NCBI GenBank assembly: GCA_024707205.1
Contig: JANQAD010000001.1
Location: 1,949,979-2,013,978 of the forward strand
Source of the DNA: Demequina sp.
GTDB taxonomy: Bacteria; Actinomycetota; Actinomycetes; Actinomycetales; Demequinaceae
DNA: 64,000 nt
Reading direction: 5' to 3'
Shown here: piece by piece, positions 4,779 to 64,000 of the stretch
Position numbering within the stretch: the stretch's first letter is position 1
Layout of the letters: every line of letters begins with the position of its first letter
Program-made: the position numbers and the translations under genes
Notes under the pieces: generated by a model
Databases searched by the model: none
Told to the model about the DNA's origin: nothing
What the model saw: only the letters and a program-made list of their open reading frames with translations

Positions 4779-5951
4779 ATGGATAGGCTGGCGAACATGG
4801 TCGAGGCCGACGCGCGCGAGCCGCTGTGGCGAGTGCTGCTGTTCGATGTGACGCCAGCGGTGGCGTTCCTCGTCATGGGACTCGTGGATCTCTACGCGCC
4901 GCTGACGGAGCCTTACGGCGATGCGCCGCTGTCGAGCGCGGTCATTCCGATTGTGCTTGCGAGCGGCTCGTTGTTGATCCGTCGCCGGTGGCCGCTCGCC
5001 GCGCTCGCGATCGCCGTGGCCGTGGTGGTGATTCCCGCGATGCTGTTCTCGGTGCTGCTGACGCTGTGGGGCCAGTTCCTGGTGTGGGTCGTGGCGATGT
5101 ACTCGGTGGGGCGCCACGAACCGTGGGAGCGGGCCGTGTGGGCGCCCATCATCTCGCTCGCGGGGTTTGGCGTGGTGATCGTCCGCTACCCGGGGCTGCA
5201 CATCGCGAGCGACGTGCTGATCGATGTGGTGATGCTGCTGGGTGCCTGGGGGATTGGGCGCCTCATCGCCGGCTCGGCGAGCAACAGGGCGAAGGCGATG
5301 GCGCTCGAGTTGGAGCGCGCACGGGCCGAGGAGCGCGCTGCGCTGAGCGAACGCACGCGCATCGCGCGCGAGCTTCACGACGTGGTCTCCCACTCGATCA
5401 CCGTGATCGTGATGCAGGCAGGCGGGGCGCGATTGGCCGCTGCCACGGACCCCGGTGCGGCCAACAGGGCGCTCGAGCTCATCGAGAACGTGGGCAGGGA
5501 GACGCTGCACGAGCTGGCGACCATGCTCAAGGTGCTGCGCAACGACGATGCTGGGGCCGCCCCGCAGCCGGTGCTCGCGAACATCCCCACGCTGTGCGCC
5601 CGCATGCTGCAGTTGGGGATGACCGTGGACGTGGACGTCGCCGAAGGGCTCGACCACGTGCCGCCGGGCGTTCAACTCGCGGCCTACCGCATTGTGCAGG
5701 AGGGCCTCACCAACATCCTCAAGCACGCTGGGCCGGTTCCCACGTCCGTGGTGGTGAGCCGAGACCAAGGCGCGCTTGAAGTGCGGGTGGCCAGCGCGTC
5801 GGGCCGTGACGACGGAGCCCTTGGGGGTTCCGAACTGGGGTTGGTGGGATTGAGGGAGCGCGTGGACTCGCTTGGTGGGCAGCTGCAGGCCGGGCCGAGC
5901 GGCGACGGCTATGGCATCAGGGCCGTGCTGCCTACGGCGGTGGCTACGTGA
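4779..5951 (+). CDS. Two-component sensor histidine kinase (NarL/DesK-type, HisKA_3)
   Basis: A roughly 390-residue kinase. The N-terminal 150 residues hold four or five membrane helices with very short loops and no large extracellular sensor domain. A coiled linker (ALELERARAEERAALSE) leads to the dimerisation/phosphoacceptor motif ARELHDVVSHSITVIV, with the His near residue 200, and a C-terminal HATPase (PPGVQLAAYRIVQEGLTNIL, then GLVGLRERVDSLGG). ATG 4779 and 4797 are both possible starts, and 4761 is a further upstream option. The stop overlaps the GTG of the response regulator gene. The signal is unknown; such intramembrane-sensing kinases often respond to envelope stress. Confidence 0.88.
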   Translation: MDRLANMVEADAREPLWRVLLFDVTPAVAFLVMGLVDLYAPLTEPYGDAPLSSAVIPIVLASGSLLIRRRWPLAALAIAVAVVVIPAMLFSVLLTLWGQFLVWVVAMYSVGRHEPWERAVWAPIISLAGFGVVIVRYPGLHIASDVLIDVVMLLGAWGIGRLIAGSASNRAKAMALELERARAEERAALSERTRIARELHDVVSHSITVIVMQAGGARLAAATDPGAANRALELIENVGRETLHELATMLKVLRNDDAGAAPQPVLANIPTLCARMLQLGMTVDVDVAEGLDHVPPGVQLAAYRIVQEGLTNILKHAGPVPTSVVVSRDQGALEVRVASASGRDDGALGGSELGLVGLRERVDSLGGQLQAGPSGDGYGIRAVLPTAVAT

Positions 5952-53138: not shown

Positions 53139-54793
53139 GGCCGTTCCTCCGATTCCTTGCGAATGGGCGGCATGCCAAGCGCGACGCCCTTGCCGTCCCA
53201 GTGCGGCAGATTGACCGACGCCGTGGTCACCAGGGACTCGCGGCGCTCCTGCTCCACGCCCTTGAGCACGTGGAAGGAGTCCGCGGGCAGCACGTTGGGG
53301 TGGGAGGCGTGCGCCTCGGGGCCGTTCCCGCCGGGGCCGCCGACCGAATCCAGCGAACAGGTGAGGTCGTCGAGCTCGCGTGCCACCTCGGCGTGGGCGG
53401 CAGGAATGACGTAGCGGTCCTCGTACTTTGCGATCGCGAGCAGGCGATACAGCTCGAGGATCGCGGTCTCGTCGAGCCCCACCGCGGCCGGGATCTCCGG
53501 CTTGGTGGCGTTGCCCAGGTTGTGGTCGCGCATGTAGGAGCGCATCGCGGCCAGGGTGTCCAGAGAGCGCAGCACGGGCGCCGGGTCGCCGGCCGTGAAG
53601 AGCTCTGCCAGGTACTCAATCGGGATGCGCAGGGACCGCAGCGCGCCGAAGAGGCTGCCCGCGTCCTCGCCGTCGTGGCCGGTGTCCCGCAGCGCCTCGG
53701 AGACGGGGGACAGCGGCGGGATGTACCAGACCATGGGCATGGTGCGGTACTCGGGGTGCAGCGGCAGTGCCACGCGGAACTCCTTGGCGAGGCGGTAGAC
53801 GGGAGAGCGGCCTGCCGCCTCGATCCAGTCCGCGGGGATCCCGTCGCGGGCCGCCGCGGCCTGCACCGCGGGGTCATGCGGGTCCAGGATCAGGTCAAGC
53901 TGCGCCTCGTAGAGGTCCTGCGGGTTGGGGGTCGCGGCGGCAGCGGTGACCTTGTCCGCGTCATACAGGAACAGGCCCAAGTAGCGCAGGCGCCCAACGC
54001 ACGTCTCGGAGCACACCGTGGGGAGCCCTGCCTCGATGCGCGGGTAGCACAGCGTGCACTTCTCGGCCTTGCCGGTGGCGTGGTTGAAGAACACCTTCTT
54101 GTAGGGGCAGCCGGTGACGCACATGCGCCAGCCGCGGCACGCATCCTGGTCCACAAGCACGATGCCGTCTTCCGCGCGCTTGTACATCGCGCCTGACGGG
54201 CACGCGGCCACGCAGGCCGGGTTCAGGCAGTGCTCGCAGATGCGCGGCAGGTAGAACATGAACGCCTGCTCGTACTCGAACTTGACGCGGTCCGTCACCT
54301 TGTCCTTGATCGCCTTGATGACGGGGTCGCCGCCCGCGGTCTCAGGGGCGCCCGCGAGGTCGTCGTCCCAGTTCGCGGACCACGTGATCTTCATGGGCTT
54401 GCCCGTGATCGCGGACTGCGGCTGAGCCACGGGGGAGGTGCGGCCCTGAGGGGCCGTCAGCAGGTTGTCGTAGTCATAGGTCCACGGCTCGTAGTAGTCC
54501 TCGACGCCGGGGAGCTTGGGGTTGGCGAAGATCGAGGCGAGGCGCTTGACGCGGCCTCCTTGGCGCAGCTTGAGCTTGCCGCGCTTGGTGAGCACCCACC
54601 CGCCTTGCCACTTCTCCTGGTCCTGGTAGGTGCGCGGGTATCCGAGGCCGGGCCGCGTCTCCACGTTGTTGAACCACGCGTACTCCATGCCGTCACGGTT
54701 GGTCCACGCCTGCTTGCACGTCACCGAGCACGTGTGGCACCCGATGCACTTGTCGAGGTTCATCACCATCGCCACTTGGGCCATGACCTTCAT
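53135..54793 (-). CDS. narH: Respiratory nitrate reductase beta subunit NarH
   Basis: A 552-residue Fe-S subunit. Cys clusters are CIGCHTCSVTC, CEHCLNPACVAACP, CRGWRMCVTGCP (Trp replaces one Cys, marking the [3Fe-4S] site) and CTLCYPRIEAGLPTVCSETC. It wires NarI to NarG. ATG 54793 has an AGGAGGTGA site and overlaps the narG stop. Length is slightly above the E. coli homologue. Confidence 0.97.
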   Translation of the reverse strand: MKVMAQVAMVMNLDKCIGCHTCSVTCKQAWTNRDGMEYAWFNNVETRPGLGYPRTYQDQEKWQGGWVLTKRGKLKLRQGGRVKRLASIFANPKLPGVEDYYEPWTYDYDNLLTAPQGRTSPVAQPQSAITGKPMKITWSANWDDDLAGAPETAGGDPVIKAIKDKVTDRVKFEYEQAFMFYLPRICEHCLNPACVAACPSGAMYKRAEDGIVLVDQDACRGWRMCVTGCPYKKVFFNHATGKAEKCTLCYPRIEAGLPTVCSETCVGRLRYLGLFLYDADKVTAAAATPNPQDLYEAQLDLILDPHDPAVQAAAARDGIPADWIEAAGRSPVYRLAKEFRVALPLHPEYRTMPMVWYIPPLSPVSEALRDTGHDGEDAGSLFGALRSLRIPIEYLAELFTAGDPAPVLRSLDTLAAMRSYMRDHNLGNATKPEIPAAVGLDETAILELYRLLAIAKYEDRYVIPAAHAEVARELDDLTCSLDSVGGPGGNGPEAHASHPNVLPADSFHVLKGVEQERRESLVTTASVNLPHWDGKGVALGMPPIRKESEERP

Positions 54794-57700
54794 CAGTACG
54801 TCACCTCCTGCGACCGACGGCGGATGACCGTGACCTCGTCGCGCTGGTTTCCGGTTGGGCCTAGGTAGTTGAAGGCGAAGGACAGCTGCCCGTAACCGCC
54901 CACCACGTGCGTCGGCTTGATCATGAGGCGGGTGAGCGAGTTGTGAATACCGCCGCGGTGGCCGGAGGTCTCCGCGATCGGAACATCCACCACGCGGTCC
55001 TTCGCGTGGTACATGAACACCGTGCCCGCGGGCATTCGGTGGCTGACGACCGCGCGCGCAACCACAACGCCGTTGCGGTTGTACGCCTCGATCCACTCGT
55101 TGTCCTTGACCCCGATGGCCGCGGCGTCCTCGACGCTCATCCATAGGTCAGGGCCGCCTCGAGACAGCGACAGCATGTACTGATTGTCCTGGTAATTCGA
55201 GTGAATGGACCACTTCGAGTGAGGCGTCAGATAGCGCACCGTCACCTCCTTCTCGCGACCCTGGCCCTGGTCCCCGTACATGCGGTGCATGTTGAGCGGT
55301 GGCCGGAACGTGGGCAGGTTCTCGCCCATCTCCGCCATCCAGTCATGGTCGAGGAAGAAGTGCTGACGGCCCGTGAGCGTGTGCCACGGCTTGAGGTGCT
55401 CCACGTTGATCGTGAAGGCTGTGTAGCGTCGGCCGCCGTGCTCGGAGCCGGACCACTCCGGCGACGTGATCACCGGCACCGGCCGCGACTGCGTGTCCGG
55501 GTAGGTGATGCGCTTGCCCTCCTCCTCGAGCGCGAGGTGGGCCAGATGCTGACCCGTGCGCTTCTCGACGTTCCGGAAGCCCTCCACCGCCACGCGCCCG
55601 TTCGTGGTGCCGGAGAGCGCGAGGATAGTCTCGCACCCGTGCACCGCGGTGACGAGAGACGGGCGCCCGGCCGCCGGGCCGTCGGCTATTACGCCGTTGA
55701 GCTGGGCGAGCCGCTCAACCTCTGGCGCCACGTTGACGGCGACGCCCTTGGTGAGCGTGCCCAGCTTCTCCATGAGCGGGCCGAGCGCCGACCACTTGGC
55801 GCCAAGCTCCGTGTAGTCGCGCTCCACGAGCACAAACTTGGGCGCCGTCTTGCCGGGAATCAGGTCAACCTCGCCCGCCTTCCAGTCCTTGACCACGCCG
55901 CCGGGCACGCTCATCGCGTCCGCGGTGTCGTGAAGCAGCGGCACCGCCACGAGGTCCGTGACCTTCTCGATGTGGCCGGGAGCCAGCTCGGAGATCGACT
56001 CGGCGAGCTCGCGGAACGTGTCCCAGTCGCTCTTGGTCTCCCACGGCGGGTTGATCGCCGGCGTGAACGCGTGCACGAACGGGTGCATGTCCGTGGACGC
56101 GATGTCGTTCTTCTCGTACCACGTGGCCGCGGGCAGCACGATGTCGGAGAACAGCCCGGTGGACGTCATGCGGTAGTCGAGCGACACCAGCAGGTCCAGC
56201 TTTCCCTCCGGCGCCTCGTCGCGCCATTTCACGTCCCGCGGCCGCAGCTCCTCCGGGCTGTCCTCGGCCGTCACGGCCGAGTGCGTGCCGAGGAGGTGGC
56301 GCAGGAAGTACTCGTTGCCCTTCGCGGACGAGCCCAGCAGGTTCGCCCGCCACACGGTGAGAATGCGCGGCCAGTTGTCCTCGGCGTCGGGGTCCTCGAT
56401 GGCGAAGCTGGTCTCGCCGGAGAGCAACTGCTCCTTCATGAACTCGCCGGGCTGCTTGCCCGACGCTGCCGCGAGTTCTCCCAGTTCCAGGCTTGAGCGG
56501 TTGAAAGTTGGGTAGGACGGCATCCACCCCGAGCGCGCCGACTGGGCGAGCACGTCCATCGAGTGCTGGCCCTCGAACAGTCCCTTGCCGAGCGGCGACG
56601 AGATGTCTCTCGGCATCATGCCGTCGTAGCGCCACTGGTCGGTCTGCGTGTAGTAGAAGCCGGTGCCGATCATCTGACGCGGGGGCCGCGCCCAGTCGAG
56701 GCCGAAAGCGAGCTGCGCCCATCCGGTCACCGGACGACACTTCTCTTGGCCCACGTAGTGCGCCCAGCCGCCGCCATTGACTCCCTGGCATCCCGTGAGC
56801 GTGATGAGCGCGAGGAAGGTGCGGTAGATGGCGTCGGAGTGGAAGTAGTGGTTGGTGCCGGCGCCCATGAGGATGAGCGAGCGGCCACCGGAGTCCTCGG
56901 CGTTCTGCGCGAACTCGCGGCCAACGCGGGCGGCGGCGTCCGCAGGCACGCCCCGTGATCTCCTCTTGCCACGCGGGAGTGTAGGGAGAGGGGTCGTCGT
57001 ATCCGGTTGGCCACTCGCCGGGGAGGCCGTCCCTGCCGACGCCGTACTGCGCGAGCATGAGGTCGAAGACGGTGGTGACGAGGGCGGGCCCGTTGGCCGT
57101 CTCGAGCGTGGCCGAGGGCACGCCGCGGCGCAGCACTCCGCCGCGCTCGTCGGTCTCCTGGCCCGTGTCAAAGCGGGGCAGCAGCACCTCCGAGGTGCCC
57201 GTTCCGCGCGCTCCGTGGAGGCTCAGGGCGGGGTCGACCCCCTCGAGGTCCAGGTTCCACTTGCCCTCGCCCTCCTCGCCGAACCGGAAGCCGAGGCTGC
57301 CGTTCGGCACGGCGGGCCGGCCCGTCGCGGAGTCGATGAGCACCGTCTTGAAGGCCGCGTTCTCGCTCGTATCTCCGAGGTCCGCGGCGGTGACGAACTT
57401 CCCGGGCACGTACGCGCCGTCCCGCTCCTCAAGGGTGACGAGGAACGGCAGGTCCGAGTAGCGCTTCACGTAGTCGACGAACCGAGGCACGGTGCGCTCC
57501 ACGAAGAATTCCTTGAGGATGACGTGGCCCATCGCCATCGCGAGCGCGCCATCCGTGCCCGGGTGGGGGTTGAGCCACTCGTCCGCGAACTTGGTGTTGT
57601 CCGCGTAGTCGGGGGAGACCACCACCACCTTCTGGCCGCGGTAGCGAGCCTCCGTCATGAAGTGCGCGTCCGGGGTGCGCGTCACGGGAACGTTGGATCC

Positions 57701-58507
57701 CCACATGATGAGATAGGCGGCGTTGAACCAGTCCGCGGACTCAGGGACGTCCGTCTGGTCGCCGAATACCTGGGGCGATGCCACCGGAAGGTCCGCGTAC
57801 CAGTCGTAGAACGACAGCATCGAGCCGCCCATCAGCGAGATGAAGCGGGCGCCGGCCGCGTGGGACGCCATCGACATCGCCGGGATGGGGGAGAAGCCGA
57901 AGACCCGGTCCGGGCCGTGCTCCATGAGCGTGTGCACGTGGGCCGCGGCGATGATCTCCTTGACCTCGCTCCAGCGGGCGCGCACCAGCCCGCCCTTGCC
58001 GCGGGCCCGCTGGTACATGCGCCTGGTCTCGGGATCGCTCACCACGGCCTTCCACGCCGCCACGGGGTCTGCGTGCTCCGCCTTCGCGTTGCGGTACGCG
58101 TCGAGCAGCGTTCCGCGGATGTACGGGTACTTCACCCGCGTGGGGGAGTAGGTGTACCAGGAGAATGCGGCGCCTCGGGGGCAGCCGCGGGGCTCATACT
58201 CTGGGCTGTCAGGGCCGGTGCTCGGGTAGTCGGTCTGCTGCGTCTCCCAGGTGATGACGCCGTCCTTGACGTAGACCTTCCAGGAGCAGGAGCCCGTGCA
58301 GTTGACTCCGTGCGTGGAGCGGACGATGCGGTCGTGGCTCCACCGATCGCGGTAGAAGACGTCGGCGCCGCGCCCGCCCTCGAGCGTGACCGTGCGCATG
58401 TCCTCGGCGACGGTTCCCGGGTGGAAGAAGCGGCCCGCCTTGACGAGCAGGCTTGCCGCCGCGTCCGGGTTTCCTGTTGCGGTGGTGCCCGACGCTGTGG
58501 TGGTCAT
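54793..58507 (-). pseudogene. narG: Respiratory nitrate reductase alpha subunit NarG with an apparent +1 frameshift
   Basis: The molybdopterin catalytic subunit, about 1237 residues if repaired. The N-terminal part has the FS0 cluster His66-x3-Cys70-x3-Cys74 in STHGVNCTGSCSW and the Mo-ligand region SFYDWYADLP. It reads correctly from ATG 58507 to QEEITG near 56955; the following VPADAAARVGREFAQ continues in another frame to 54793. One G too many in a four-G run (plus-strand CCCC 56951-56954) explains this. As read, the product loses its C-terminal 60 percent. Either an assembly error or a true null allele. ATG overlaps the regulator stop. Confidence 0.9.
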
Positions 58508-59256
58508 GGCTGCTCCTTGGTGGGTGGGCGTGGGGTGGACGACGGTGCGATGGCGATGCGTGTGGGAACGGTGTCCGGTCGATTGAGGCGGGCGCGGCAC
58601 ACACCCGGCCGCACCCAGACGTCGAAGCCCTCGAGCGTCACGGGCTGGCCGGTGCGCTTGAGCAGGTTCGAGACGAGTTCGGCGTGGATGGTGCAGATCA
58701 TCGGGTGGTCGTCGATGAGGCTCGCGTACGGGCACTCGGACATCGTGATGGTGTCGCCCACCTCGTCGGTGTGCGCCTTGAATCCGGCTCTCTGGAGCGA
58801 CTCCACCGCTCGGGCCACCGCCTCGTCTAGGTCGCGCGCGGTGCCGACTTGGGGCACTGAGGAGGCCCAGCGTCGGGCCGTCTCGATGGCCACCTCATCC
58901 TCCATACTTGCCACTACTGCGCGAGTGAGGAACTGTTCCAGTTCATCGTATGGCTCGGCGGCGGCGGCGGAGGGCGTGTAGAGGACTTTGGGGCGGCCGC
59001 GACCCGCGGCGGCCGCGGTGGTGCGCGTCACGAGATCGGCGGCGACGAGAACGTCGAGGTGGTGGCGCGCGGTGTTGACGTGCAGATCGGTTGCAGCGGC
59101 GATGTCCTCGATGGCGAGGGCCTCATCCGCGGCGAGCAGAGCGTCGACGATCGCACGGCGCGAGCCCACGAGAACGCTCGAGTGCGGCGCCTTCGGCGAG
59201 CCGAGCGCGACGAGGCGCCGGAGTGCGCCCTCGAGCTCCTGGCTGGACGTTGCCAT
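58504..59256 (-). CDS. HTH regulator with C-terminal Cys cluster, first gene of the nar operon
   Basis: A 250-residue regulator. Residues 25-95 form an ArsR-like winged helix (RRAIVDALLAADEALAIEDI, HVNTARHHLDVLVAADLV, wing GRGRPKVLY). The C-terminal domain carries Cys175 and Cys188 (C-x12-C) and Cys220, comparable to the iron-sulfur site of SufR-type sensors, which suggests sensing of oxygen or NO. Its stop overlaps narG, and narK is divergent, so it probably controls both. ATG 59256 follows AGGAAGGTGG. Confidence 0.85.
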   Translation of the reverse strand: MATSSQELEGALRRLVALGSPKAPHSSVLVGSRRAIVDALLAADEALAIEDIAAATDLHVNTARHHLDVLVAADLVTRTTAAAAGRGRPKVLYTPSAAAAEPYDELEQFLTRAVVASMEDEVAIETARRWASSVPQVGTARDLDEAVARAVESLQRAGFKAHTDEVGDTITMSECPYASLIDDHPMICTIHAELVSNLLKRTGQPVTLEGFDVWVRPGVCRARLNRPDTVPTRIAIAPSSTPRPPTKEQP

Positions 59257-60787: not shown

Positions 60788-60881
60788 CGTACGCACATGA
60801 GCGTCGGAATCGGTGCTGCCTGCTTGCCCGTACGCACATGAGCGTCGTATTCGATGCTCAGACCGACGCCCATGTGCGTAC
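60788..60881. repeat. Three copies of a 19-bp repeat, two forming a hairpin (left flank of DUF559 gene)
   Basis: CGTACGCACATGAGCGTCG occurs at 60788-60806 and 60829-60847, and inverted with one mismatch at 60864-60881. Copies 2 and 3 form an 18-bp stem with a 16-base loop, in the gap between convergent narK and the DUF559 gene, where it may end both transcripts. The same repeat flanks the other side of that gene. Confidence 0.9.
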
Positions 60882-60898
60882 AAGATCCGCGACGTCCG

Positions 60899-61825
60899 CT
60901 ATGCCGCTCTGCGCGCGAGGCCGGACCGGACCGCCCTGAGCACGGTCCGCCGCACCCACTCTCGCCGGTAGAGAAGGTCGTGCATCGTGAAGTGGAGCAC
61001 CGCGTAGCCGTCGGACACGAACTCGTTGTCGCGCATCCGATCCTTCTCGCGCTTCTTGGCGCCTCCGTGGTACTTCCAGCCGTCGAGCTCGATCACCACC
61101 CGTGCCTCGCGATGAAGCACGTCGGGCGTGCGATCACGACCTGCGATCTCCATCGGCTCTTGCCACTCCAGGTCGGCAAACTCGGGTCCGATCAGCACCT
61201 CGGTCTTGGCCAGCACCTCGAGCGGCGACGTGGCACCGTCTTTGAAGTGAGCGAGCAACCTGAGCAGTTGGCCCCGCGCGACCAAAGTGGGTTGACTCCG
61301 CTGAGCCTCGAGCAGTTGGCTGGCAGTGCACAGGCCATCCCACAGAGCGAGGTACACCTGCTCTTGTCGACGCCCCGGCGTTGCCTGACGCCATGCATCG
61401 AGTGCTGCCGCGGCTGGCGGTGTGCAGCGTATTCCACGGACTGTCGCCACGTCGTCGTCCAGATAGGCGGATCGCACGCGAAGCCATTTCGGCGCACGCG
61501 ACCGCGTGTGATGCTGCACGACGACCATCGCACCCCTCGGCGCCGTCTCATCACCGCGGTGAATCGCGAGCGCCAGTTCGCCGGTGACGACGGCTTGCGG
61601 CCACCAGGCGTTGAGCGCTGATCCCACCGCCTCGGGACTTCCCAGGTGTTCCCGCGCCACATAGACACCGGGCAGGACGCGCCGGAGCACTCCCTCACGG
61701 ACCGCGCGCTCCAAAGCGGCCCGGGAGAAGCGTTCGAGAAGATCCGCCGCACGATGCGCGGTCGGGGCACGGCGCACGAACACCGCCAACTCCCGGTAGC
61801 CAAGGCGTGTGGTGGGCTGGGACAT
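60899..61825 (-). CDS. AbiEi-like winged helix + DUF559 endonuclease-fold protein
   Basis: A 308-residue protein. Residues 10-65 look like the winged-helix of AbiEi-type antitoxins (FSRAALERAVREGVLRRVLP, then GVYV). Residues 205-300 match DUF559, a Vsr/PD-(D/E)xK-like nuclease fold, with the putative catalytic core RVVIELDGWKYHG (Glu246, Asp248) and AVLHFTMHDLL. No partner toxin gene is adjacent. Start ATG 61825 is preferred, because longer frames read through the repeat block at 61955. Hairpin repeats of one family flank both ends. The function of such actinobacterial proteins is not established. Confidence 0.75.
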   Translation of the reverse strand: MSQPTTRLGYRELAVFVRRAPTAHRAADLLERFSRAALERAVREGVLRRVLPGVYVAREHLGSPEAVGSALNAWWPQAVVTGELALAIHRGDETAPRGAMVVVQHHTRSRAPKWLRVRSAYLDDDVATVRGIRCTPPAAAALDAWRQATPGRRQEQVYLALWDGLCTASQLLEAQRSQPTLVARGQLLRLLAHFKDGATSPLEVLAKTEVLIGPEFADLEWQEPMEIAGRDRTPDVLHREARVVIELDGWKYHGGAKKREKDRMRDNEFVSDGYAVLHFTMHDLLYRREWVRRTVLRAVRSGLARRAA

Positions 61826-61954
61826 GCGGAAACGGTGGTCCCCACACGTGGCACGGCGCAAGGCATCATCTCGGATCTGTGGATAAGCGCCCGACCGCAT
61901 CTTGGTCCACAGGCGGGCTCCCTGCGGCGGCGCGGCTCGGGCAGGCCCATATCC

Positions 61955-62070
61955 CGTACGCACATGAGCGTCGAAACAAGGCTCATTTCCGACGCTCATG
62001 TGCGTACGGGGCAACGGGGCCGACGCTCATGTGCGTACGGGGCAACGGGGCCGACGCTCATGTGCGTACC
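61955..62070. repeat. Four copies of the 19-bp repeat (right flank of DUF559 gene)
   Basis: CGTACGCACATGAGCGTCG at 61955-61973, then three inverted copies at 61990-62008, 62021-62039 and 62052-62070 (last base variant). The first two form a perfect 19-bp stem with a 16-base loop, the same geometry as the left-hand hairpin. The inverted copies recur every 31 bp with an identical GGGCAACGGGGC-type spacer. The block lies between the modC stop and the DUF559 promoter region. Confidence 0.92.
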
Positions 62071-62091: not shown

Positions 62092-63053
62092 TCACACGGA
62101 GTAGGCGGCGCCCGTCGCCTTGACGCGGAAGAAGACCGCATCGCCAGGGCGAGGCAGCGGCCCGGCGACGGGATCGAGATCGGCGGCCAGTCGCGACCCG
62201 TGGACCCGCACCAGATCACCATGGGGTTCGAGCGCGGTGACGACGTCCGCGATTCCCGTGGTGTCGACGGCGATGTCCCGGGGGTGCACGGCGATCGCGG
62301 CGGTCGCGCCTTCGGCGACCGCCTCGGTCTCGCACGCCACGAGCTCTCCTGAATCGAGCCGCACACCGCCCGGCTCCGGGCTGCCCTTAATCAGCACGCG
62401 ACCAGCCATGCGCGCGGCGAACGGCGTGCGCGGCTTGGTGAGCACGCGCGCCACGGGGCCGGACTCCACCACACCGCCCCCTCGAGCACCGCGATATGGC
62501 TCGCGAGCGCGTACGCGTCGAGTGTGGTGTGCGTGGCGATGATCGCGGTGAGCCCGGCCAACTCCTCCGCGAGGAGCGCGCGGATAGACGTCGCCGCCTC
62601 GAGGTCGAGGCCCGCGAAGGGCTCGTCGAGGAGAATCACCTCAGGCGAACTGGCGAGCGCGCGGGCGATCGCCACGCGGCGCGCCTGACCGCCGGACAAC
62701 TCGGTGGGTCGCCGCGTCGCGAGGTCCGCCGCCCCCACCCGCTCAAGCCAGGACCGTGCGAGCTCCCGCGCCGGCTCTCGCTTCATGCCTCGGGCTCGAG
62801 GCGGGAACGCCACGTTGTCCACCACGCTCATCGTGGGGAACAGCTCGCCCCGCTGGGTGACAAGCGCCACCCTCTCGGGCGCCGCGGGGGTGACCACAGC
62901 GTCGGGCAGCAGGCCGGCGAGGGCCTCGAGGATAGTGGTCTTGCCGGAGCCGTTGGGACCCAACAGGGCAAGCACGCGGCCCGACGCCACACTCACCTTC
63001 GCGTCGATGCCTCGCCCGGGCGCGGTGACGGTGAAGGCCAGGTCGCCGGTCAC
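62092..63053 (-). pseudogene. modC: Molybdate ABC transporter ATPase ModC with an apparent -1 frameshift
   Basis: The ATPase of molybdate import. The first frame from GTG 63053 has Walker A LLGPNGSGKTT, signature ELSGGQARRVAIARAL and Walker B VILLDEPFAGLD, up to IAVLEG. The expected continuation GVVESGPVARVLTKP and the C-terminal TOBE/MOP molybdate-binding domain lie in another frame to 62092. One extra G in the five-G run (plus-strand C 62477-62481) restores a roughly 320-residue protein. The ATPase core is unbroken, so a product lacking only TOBE could still work. GTGA overlap with modB. Confidence 0.87.
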
Positions 63054-63838
63054 TGGGAGGTACCTCGGGTCAGGGGTCGGTAGGCGACCGCAACCACAGA
63101 GACAGCCACGATGAGCAGCAGCAGGGACAGCGCCACAGCGACATTCGGGTCCACCTCGCGCTGCAGGTAGATTTCGAGCGGCGCCGTGCGCGTGACGCCC
63201 TCTAGGCTGCCCGCGAACGTCAGCGTGGCGCCGAACTCTCCGAGCGCTCGCGCGAAGGCGAGCACGGTGCCCGCGGCGAGCGCGGGCCCCAGCGCCGGCA
63301 CGGTCACCCTGAACAGTGTGCGAGTCCGGGAGGCGCCGTACATTCGCGCGATCGCCTCGTTGCGCGTGCCCCGAGCGGCCACGGCCGATTCGGTCGTGAG
63401 CACCATGAACGGCATCGCCACGAACGTCTGGGCGAGCACCACGGCCGTGGTGGTGAAGGCGATGGTGATGCCCCAGTGCTCGAGGGTGGAGCCCAGCAGC
63501 CCGCGCCGCCCGAACGCGTACAGCAGCGCAAGGCCGCCCACCACGGGCGGCAGCACTAGCGGCGCGAGCACGAGCGCGCGCAGCACCGGCCGCCACCGCG
63601 AGCGCATCACGGCGAGCGCGTAGCCCAGGGGCGCTCCGAGGATCAGGCAGGCCACCGTGGCCAGCACGGCCGTGCGCAGGCTCAGCCCCAGCGCGGTGAG
63701 TGCGCTGGGGCTGGTGACCTGATTGCCGAAGTCGCTCCAGTCCACGCGGGCGAGCACGCCCGCGATAGGCAGCAGGACCAGCACCGCCCCACCTACGGCG
63801 AGGGCGGCCACCCATCGGGGCAGGGGAGAGCGGGTCAC
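63050..63838 (-). CDS. modB: Molybdate ABC transporter permease ModB
   Basis: A 262-residue permease with six helices. The ABC-coupling EAA-type loop is GTRNEAIARMYGASRTRTLF, followed by VTVPALGPALAAGTVLAFARALGEFGATL, which is characteristic of ModB. It forms the membrane channel with ModC. GTG 63838 overlaps the modA stop, and its own stop overlaps modC. Confidence 0.95.
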   Translation of the reverse strand: MTRSPLPRWVAALAVGGAVLVLLPIAGVLARVDWSDFGNQVTSPSALTALGLSLRTAVLATVACLILGAPLGYALAVMRSRWRPVLRALVLAPLVLPPVVGGLALLYAFGRRGLLGSTLEHWGITIAFTTTAVVLAQTFVAMPFMVLTTESAVAARGTRNEAIARMYGASRTRTLFRVTVPALGPALAAGTVLAFARALGEFGATLTFAGSLEGVTRTAPLEIYLQREVDPNVAVALSLLLLIVAVSVVAVAYRPLTRGTSQ

Positions 63839-64000
63839 GACGCGGGGAGGAACCCTGCCGCCGCGAGCACTTCCTGGCCGTGCGCGGACTGGACGAACTC
63901 GATGAACTTCGCGGCAGCGTCGGCCGCATCGCCGGTGTCCATGACGGCGATCGGGTACTTGTTGATCGCGGCTGCGGCGCCCTCGATGGTGACGCCCTGG
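63835..64000 (-). CDS. modA: Molybdate-binding protein ModA, C-terminal end (partial)
   Basis: Only the last 54 codons are in the window. The end AAAKFIEFVQSAHGQEVLAA and GFLPAS is the typical C-terminus of periplasmic molybdate-binding proteins, and the preceding INKYPIAVM fits the ModA pattern. Its stop overlaps modB. Completes the modABC order on the minus strand and supplies molybdate for the Moco genes. Confidence 0.88.
   Translation of the reverse strand, partial: QGVTIEGAAAAINKYPIAVMDTGDAADAAAKFIEFVQSAHGQEVLAAAGFLPAS

Follow-up and report, generated by a model that had tools for sequence, protein, structure and literature searches.

A DUF559 gene in a Demequina genome is bracketed by copies of one short repeat, which raises the question of whether the encoded protein acts on these repeats or whether the gene merely landed among them. 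The window (the whole stretch of DNA that was analyzed, 64,000 nucleotides) contained seven copies of the 19-mer, of which five were exact, one had a single mismatch, and one had two. Only 0.02 copies were expected by chance from shuffled sequences. All seven copies that the initial annotation had placed around a single gene were recovered (Table 1). On one side they separate the DUF559 gene from an MFS transporter gene, and on the other from ABC-transporter genes. The right arm of the left pair stops 16 bases short of the DUF559 stop codon (60899-60901), and the left arm of the right hairpin lies ~130 bp upstream of the start codon. In both inverted pairs (60829/60864 and 61955/61990), the arms were offset by 35 bp, leaving a 16-nt loop. 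Folded as single-stranded DNA, the right hairpin (61950-62012) reached −29.8 kcal/mol (z −10.3) and the whole left cluster −30.7 kcal/mol (z −5.2). An inverted pair with a 16-base loop was confirmed on each side as an arrangement of copies, but on the left the best fold paired the outermost copy with the minus-strand copy and did not use the inner pair. An Rfam search of the last 6 kb of the window returned two microRNA models far under their gathering scores, which were rejected as chance matches.

Table 1. Repeat copies and the enclosed gene, in window coordinates.
Feature	Position	Strand	Description
Repeat copy	60788..60806	+	Exact; outer copy, left element
Repeat copy	60829..60847	+	Exact; left arm, left inverted pair
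Repeat copy	60864..60882	-	2 mismatches; right arm, left inverted pair
DUF559 gene, 308 aa	60899..61825	-	DUF559 and AbiEi-like match
Repeat copy	61955..61973	+	Exact; left arm, right hairpin
Repeat copy	61990..62008	-	Exact; right arm, right hairpin
Repeat copy	62021..62039	-	Exact; outer copy, 31-bp spacing
Repeat copy	62052..62070	-	1 mismatch; outer copy, 31-bp spacing

Next, we analyzed the enclosed gene. Its frame is open from 62014, and the ATG at 61825 is the start that fits the lengths of its relatives. The protein matched DUF559 in Pfam (E 9e-7); its match to AbiEi_4 was weak (E 0.003) and under Pfam's cut-off, and PADLOC AbiEi models matched down to E 5e-12. Among 33 aligned relatives, including the window protein, DUF559 was recognized in 31, the REase model MTES_1575 in 32, and AbiEi_4 in nine (E 0.01). 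The domains comprised a winged helix (residues ~8-60), an AbiEi C-terminal/NTase-like region (~60-195), and a Vsr/homing-endonuclease-like nuclease corresponding to DUF559 (~198-304). An AlphaFold2 model built from 35 sequences (mean pLDDT 91.5) was compared with known folds by VIA-align. In the model, residues 198-304 resembled a Neisseria endonuclease-like protein (Z 12.3, 92 residues, rmsd 2.1), the homing endonuclease I-Bth0305I (Z 12.0, 96 residues, rmsd 2.3), and Vsr (Z 9.7, 99 residues, rmsd 2.5), and residues 8-192 resembled AbiEi (Z 10.4, 181 residues, rmsd 6.0). No transposase stood out in this comparison, in which TnsA was present at Z 6.3. E203, D235, H238, E246, D248, H253, and D262 were invariant across the 35-sequence alignment. 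We take these acidic and histidine residues to be catalytic, and their conservation suggests an intact predicted active site. The winged helix and Vsr-like DUF559 domain of the initial annotation were thus recovered, and its Glu246/Asp248 are among the invariant residues.

The initial annotation had named two findings that would speak against a repeat-associated nuclease, namely a repeat confined to this locus and repeats distributed independently of DUF559 genes. As to the former, an 18-base core was searched in the 2.54-Mb chromosome and gave 21 matches at up to two mismatches, compared with one for the reversed pattern. The repeat was thus dispersed, with matches at eight places: 439667, 1069579, 1475331, 1601677, 1645225, 1915573, and the two window clusters. 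All eight contained an inverted pair at the 35-bp offset (at most five mismatches over 21 bases), and seven also had outer copies at 41 or 31 bp; the element at 1645225 was the most complete, a symmetrical array of four copies. The six solo elements had no DUF559 place closer than 40 kb among the seven listed of the nine matches in this genome. A crude coding predictor covered 8 of 49 hairpins compared with 75% of random positions, and it covered two of the eight own-genome elements (L023 and L026), perhaps by starts extended too far. In 118 other genomes, the search returned no exact match, one match with a single mismatch, and otherwise matches with two mismatches; since these 24 matches equaled the 24 obtained with the reversed pattern (hand count), the family was specific to its own genome within that sample.

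We then asked whether other DUF559 genes carry repeats of their own. Relatives were present in all 43 other Demequina genomes searched, with 2-9 protein matches each. The two 400-bp flanks of each gene were compared by an ungapped score (+1/−1.5) at several thresholds, these choices being our own. For 35 named loci, a shared flank repeat scoring at least 15 was observed in 27, compared with 11 of 210 random intervals of 930 bp drawn from those loci and with 22 of 210 flank swaps. Neighboring predicted genes served as a further control, the flank here extending 45 bp into the end of the gene. At a score of at least 18, 26 of the 35 DUF559 loci and none of 109 neighboring genes were positive; the corresponding values were 28/35 and 6/109 at 15, and 29/35 and 23/109 at 13, as the background climbs at low thresholds. 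A set of 96 loci from 41 of the 44 genomes, picked before the flanks were examined, comprised the 30 best matches, six more from the own genome (seven of its nine), and 60 further matches in rough rank order. This set covered listed matches only; some broken, partial, or contig-edge matches and many low-ranking ones stayed outside it. At a score of at least 20, 64 of the 96 loci shared a flank repeat, compared with 0/192 same-genome and 13/576 cross-genome mismatched pairs; at 15 or more, the values were 73/96, 7/192, and 30/576, counts that are not independent of those for the 35 loci or of one another because the sets overlap, orthologues are frequent among the loci, and the genomes are related to one another. 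The remaining 23 loci scored under 15 and had no convincing shared repeat; of the seven loci compared in the own genome, three (L083, L086, and L087) lacked one. The absence of same-genome swaps at this highest threshold indicated that the repeats differ between paralogues within one genome. Thus, at most loci, DUF559 paralogues were indeed flanked by their own repeat families, a point that the annotation had put forward for checking.

The flank repeats were mostly hairpins. By eye, many had a common inner GAGTGC-like part and a common outer CTGG/CCAG, with a variable middle. Similar bracketing was observed in another family of the order, where 18 of 30 loci were positive at a score of 20 compared with 32/828 swaps, and 22 of 30 at a score of 15 compared with 92/828, although some of these genes are fragments and GC-rich flanks lift the background. 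A Mantel test between protein and repeat similarity, made on the 71 loci for which a shared repeat was already established, gave r 0.25 (0/999 permutations). As orthologues in the same place inherit both gene and repeat, this result was set aside as proof of co-evolution.

Dispersed copies were analyzed for further repeat families. Of the 44 genomes, 14 carried the GGGACATG family, with 69 hairpins in all; 67 measured 45 bp and two 46 bp, although the pattern permitted lengths of 36-64. The GAGGTGCT family comprised 31 hairpins in eight of 44 genomes, all of 47 bp, and the GCTGACAC family seven, all of 52 bp, in one of 44 genomes (G019), which carries a gene (L170) flanked by that family. Reversed-pattern controls for all three gave zero. 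In G010, where gene L167 has flanks like the GCTGACAC type, the strict pattern found no copies, and a variant copy was present. A BLAST query from G010 containing two hairpins matched, through these two parts, ~16 and ~12 separate places in G019 (hand count). For the own-genome paralogue L084, two further pairs had the 21-bp offset seen next to the gene itself; its family search at three mismatches gave 24 matches compared with 7 reversed, a weaker case. Therefore, all five repeat families tested were dispersed, one of them (L084) weakly. Within the GGGACATG family, agreement between the arms exceeded that expected from column composition at several free positions, such as 11 (0.69 compared with 0.42) and 13 (0.76 compared with 0.51), and no excess was observed at position 21 (0.42 for both). 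This covariation fits a hairpin and also symmetrical protein binding.

Nor were the two hairpin families tested across the genus distributed independently of the genes. Dispersed GGGACATG hairpins occurred in eight of nine genomes with a matching gene compared with six of 35 without (Fisher p 1.3e-4), and GAGGTGCT hairpins in four of five compared with four of 39 (Fisher p 2.4e-3), in related genomes and with copies beside fetched genes left out. Here, "without" refers to the genes fetched, which were zero for G004, G007, and G016. Hairpins in the absence of a matching fetched gene were observed in ten genome-family cases, six for GGGACATG (two in G003, one in G009, two in G023, one in G029, five in G037, and eight in G038) and four for GAGGTGCT (three in G006, one in G016, three in G019, and one in G037). 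Conversely, G043 and G022 had a matching gene and zero dispersed copies by the strict pattern. The clearest exceptions were G037 and G038, in which no exact GGGACATG was present among the four fetched genes each (of five and seven matches, respectively). Gene L169 of G038 carries GGGAACTGAG, a near variant of GGGACATG, in surroundings common to GGGACATG-flanked genes of other species. The GGGACATG hairpins of G037 and G038 may be relics of an earlier specificity.

Hairpins at fixed sites were then compared between species. At site 1, which is intergenic, a CTGACAC hairpin was present in G010 and G019, a GGGACATG hairpin in G038, and GAGGTGCT-type sequence including a full hairpin in G002. G022 was hairpin-free there, with 13 bp where G010 has 71; this one site thus held three hairpin families across four species and none in a fifth. 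Site 2 had the GGGACATG type in G010, G037, and G019 (the G019 copy is a variant that lies at the end of a contig and is accompanied by a GAGGTGCT-type hairpin) and the GAGGTGCT type in G002, and no hairpin was recognized in G022. At site 3, the GGGACATG type was present in G010, G019, and G037, a variant lay a little way off in G038, and G022 had the GAGGTGCT type, with an alignment on a single side. G002 and G022 each possess a DUF559 gene with GAGGTGCT-type flanks (L179 and L082). The different hairpins at shared sites indicate gain or loss at the species level. No target-site duplication or base-exact empty site was found, the intergenic flanks being too diverged to show one. As separate observations, G002 contained at site 3 an inverted repeat unrelated to GGGACATG and GAGGTGCT (L250, between 1244 and 1501), and G019 had, relative to L228 of G010, an additional ~826 bp immediately next to a dispersed hairpin (L235, 1306-2132), with an open frame resembling a membrane protein.

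We consider it likely that the gene and its hairpins form a cognate repeat-nuclease pair that resembles REPIN-RAYT and uses an unrelated enzyme, the protein mobilizing or processing the hairpins. This reading draws on the bracketing, the gene-specific repeat, the dispersal at near-constant length or offset, the arm covariation of one family, the association between gene and family, and the turnover at fixed sites. Each subtype would be represented by one gene per genome, often in conserved surroundings, whose product would combine an AbiEi-like DNA-binding front end with a Vsr-like nuclease and recognize the palindromic hairpins that bracket the gene. The AbiEi-like module may read the variable middle of the hairpin, and the nuclease may nick the hairpin, probably when extruded or single-stranded. 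Host repair or replication would then copy the 45-60-bp hairpin to new extragenic sites at a low rate. Binding, cleavage, and mobilization by the DUF559 protein are what we infer from this pattern. The repeat-associated nuclease proposed initially is thus supported to that extent, as bracketing was general in the genus and neither finding named against it was obtained. More tentatively, AbiEi-DUF559 proteins could constitute a new class of domesticated mobilizing nuclease, with several orthogonal nuclease-hairpin pairs per genome in which enzyme and hairpin core change together, a class that would reach another family of the order.

The window locus taken alone would be compatible with a gene that landed among repeats by chance, which the annotation had held equally possible; that such repeats bracket most DUF559 loci, but none of the neighboring genes at the threshold of 18 and none of the same-genome mismatched pairs at 20, makes this extremely unlikely. 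It is also highly improbable that the gene and its inverted repeats move as one unit, as an insertion sequence would. Long inverted flank repeats do occur at several loci (e.g., L196, L202, L204, and L206), and one gene (L066 in G037) is inverted relative to neighbors conserved with L169, L060, and, on one flank only, L183. Such an inversion would also follow from recombination between flanking inverted repeats. Furthermore, homologous flanks were lacking in 24 of the 60 cross-genome pairs listed as closest. However, the other 36, and all of the ten closest pairs, had homologous flanks, and no near-identical gene pair was present within any genome, the highest identity being 69% among the 96 loci, a set that lacks some paralogues. 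The DUF559 gene is therefore unlike an insertion sequence in its behavior.

The main rival is that the repeats are operators, whereby the AbiEi-like domain autoregulates the gene through the upstream hairpin, the dispersed copies form a regulon, and the nuclease has another task. AbiEi antitoxins are known to bind inverted repeats in promoters, as described in PMC7319586. The protein model resembles AbiEi, a hairpin ended 60-170 bp upstream of the start in 24 of 35 loci (hand count), and arm covariation is also expected from binding by a symmetrical dimer. Nevertheless, 27 of 35 loci (hand count) also had a hairpin whose start fell within −26 to +19 bp of the end of the gene, and of the six solo elements in the own genome, three (L022, L024, and L027) lie, by our reading, between convergent genes and not at promoters. 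Together with the occupation of one site by different hairpin families in different species, the hairpin at the gene's end weakens this explanation, which we regard as unlikely. Alternatively, the protein could police the repeats by cutting their cruciforms or foldbacks, with some other process dispersing them. The closeness of the nuclease fold to the repair enzyme Vsr would agree with this, but policing would not readily account for each gene having a repeat family of its own or for the correspondence of hairpin family and gene, and we consider it quite unlikely.

The preferred reading, a cognate nuclease-hairpin pair, was compared with known systems. REPINs, as PMC3116915 and PMC8049555 describe, are inverted REP doublets able to form hairpins, and their duplication is the work of RAYT transposases that are single-copy and vertically inherited. 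As in that system, palindromic repeats of its own bracket the Demequina gene, which is not multiplied within a genome, as its low within-genome identity and the flanks shared by the closest pairs attest; hairpin-capable inverted doublets are dispersed and mostly extragenic, and the repeats vary along with the gene. In contrast, the REPIN-RAYT enzyme is an HUH tyrosine transposase (TnpA-REP), whereas that of Demequina joins an AbiEi-like front end to a Vsr-like nuclease, and the copies counted per Demequina genome were few, tens or fewer, compared with the 69-235 REPINs per E. coli genome given in PMC8049555. A profile search of the own genome for Y1_Tnp (PF01797) found none. Since the enclosed gene is DUF559, the system, by analogy, works like REPIN-RAYT but is not a member of it; the design noted initially, a REPIN-like layout beside a gene other than a tyrosine transposase, was accordingly recovered.

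The modeled nuclease domain shares its fold with Vsr and I-Bth0305I, from which the Demequina gene differs by its accompanying hairpin repeats. With AbiEi type IV antitoxins, the protein shares the predicted fold of residues 8-192 and the gene shares nearby inverted repeats, but the Demequina protein is fused to a nuclease. At the window locus, where the neighbors are MFS and ABC-transporter genes, no AbiEii (DUF1814) toxin gene was found adjoining the DUF559 gene; the adjoining ABC ATPase matched, over 21 residues, AAA_21, a general ATPase model whose title names AbiEii. In the open-access papers searched, we found neither a link between DUF559 and repeats nor a paper that combines RAYT, REPIN, and actinobacteria. 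The system looks like an undescribed counterpart of REPIN-RAYT built on an unrelated enzyme. If so, a second enzyme, unrelated to RAYT and with hairpins of its own, would supply a mechanism for such repeats in actinobacteria; part of DUF559 would gain a function, and recognition could be compared across a natural collection of nuclease-hairpin pairs. The REP economy would then have been invented independently, from a repair or homing nuclease. These results make hairpin mobilization by a Vsr-like nuclease a directly testable question.

Minor observations concerned reading frames in the own genome. A nitrate reductase alpha-type gene in the window (54793-58735, minus strand) consists of two overlapping frames whose matches follow one another along a single molybdopterin oxidoreductase domain; this split is a frameshift or a sequencing error. 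By eye, the ABC-transporter ATPase gene beside the right hairpins (62092-63929, minus strand) apparently changes frame near 62391-62472, and its short downstream frame had no Pfam match. Similarly, a thiL-like gene before the solo hairpin of L024 (~4900-5098) apparently changes frame near its end, also by eye, and as read it enters the repeat. Taken with the two split genes of the window, this frame change hints at indel errors in the assembly.
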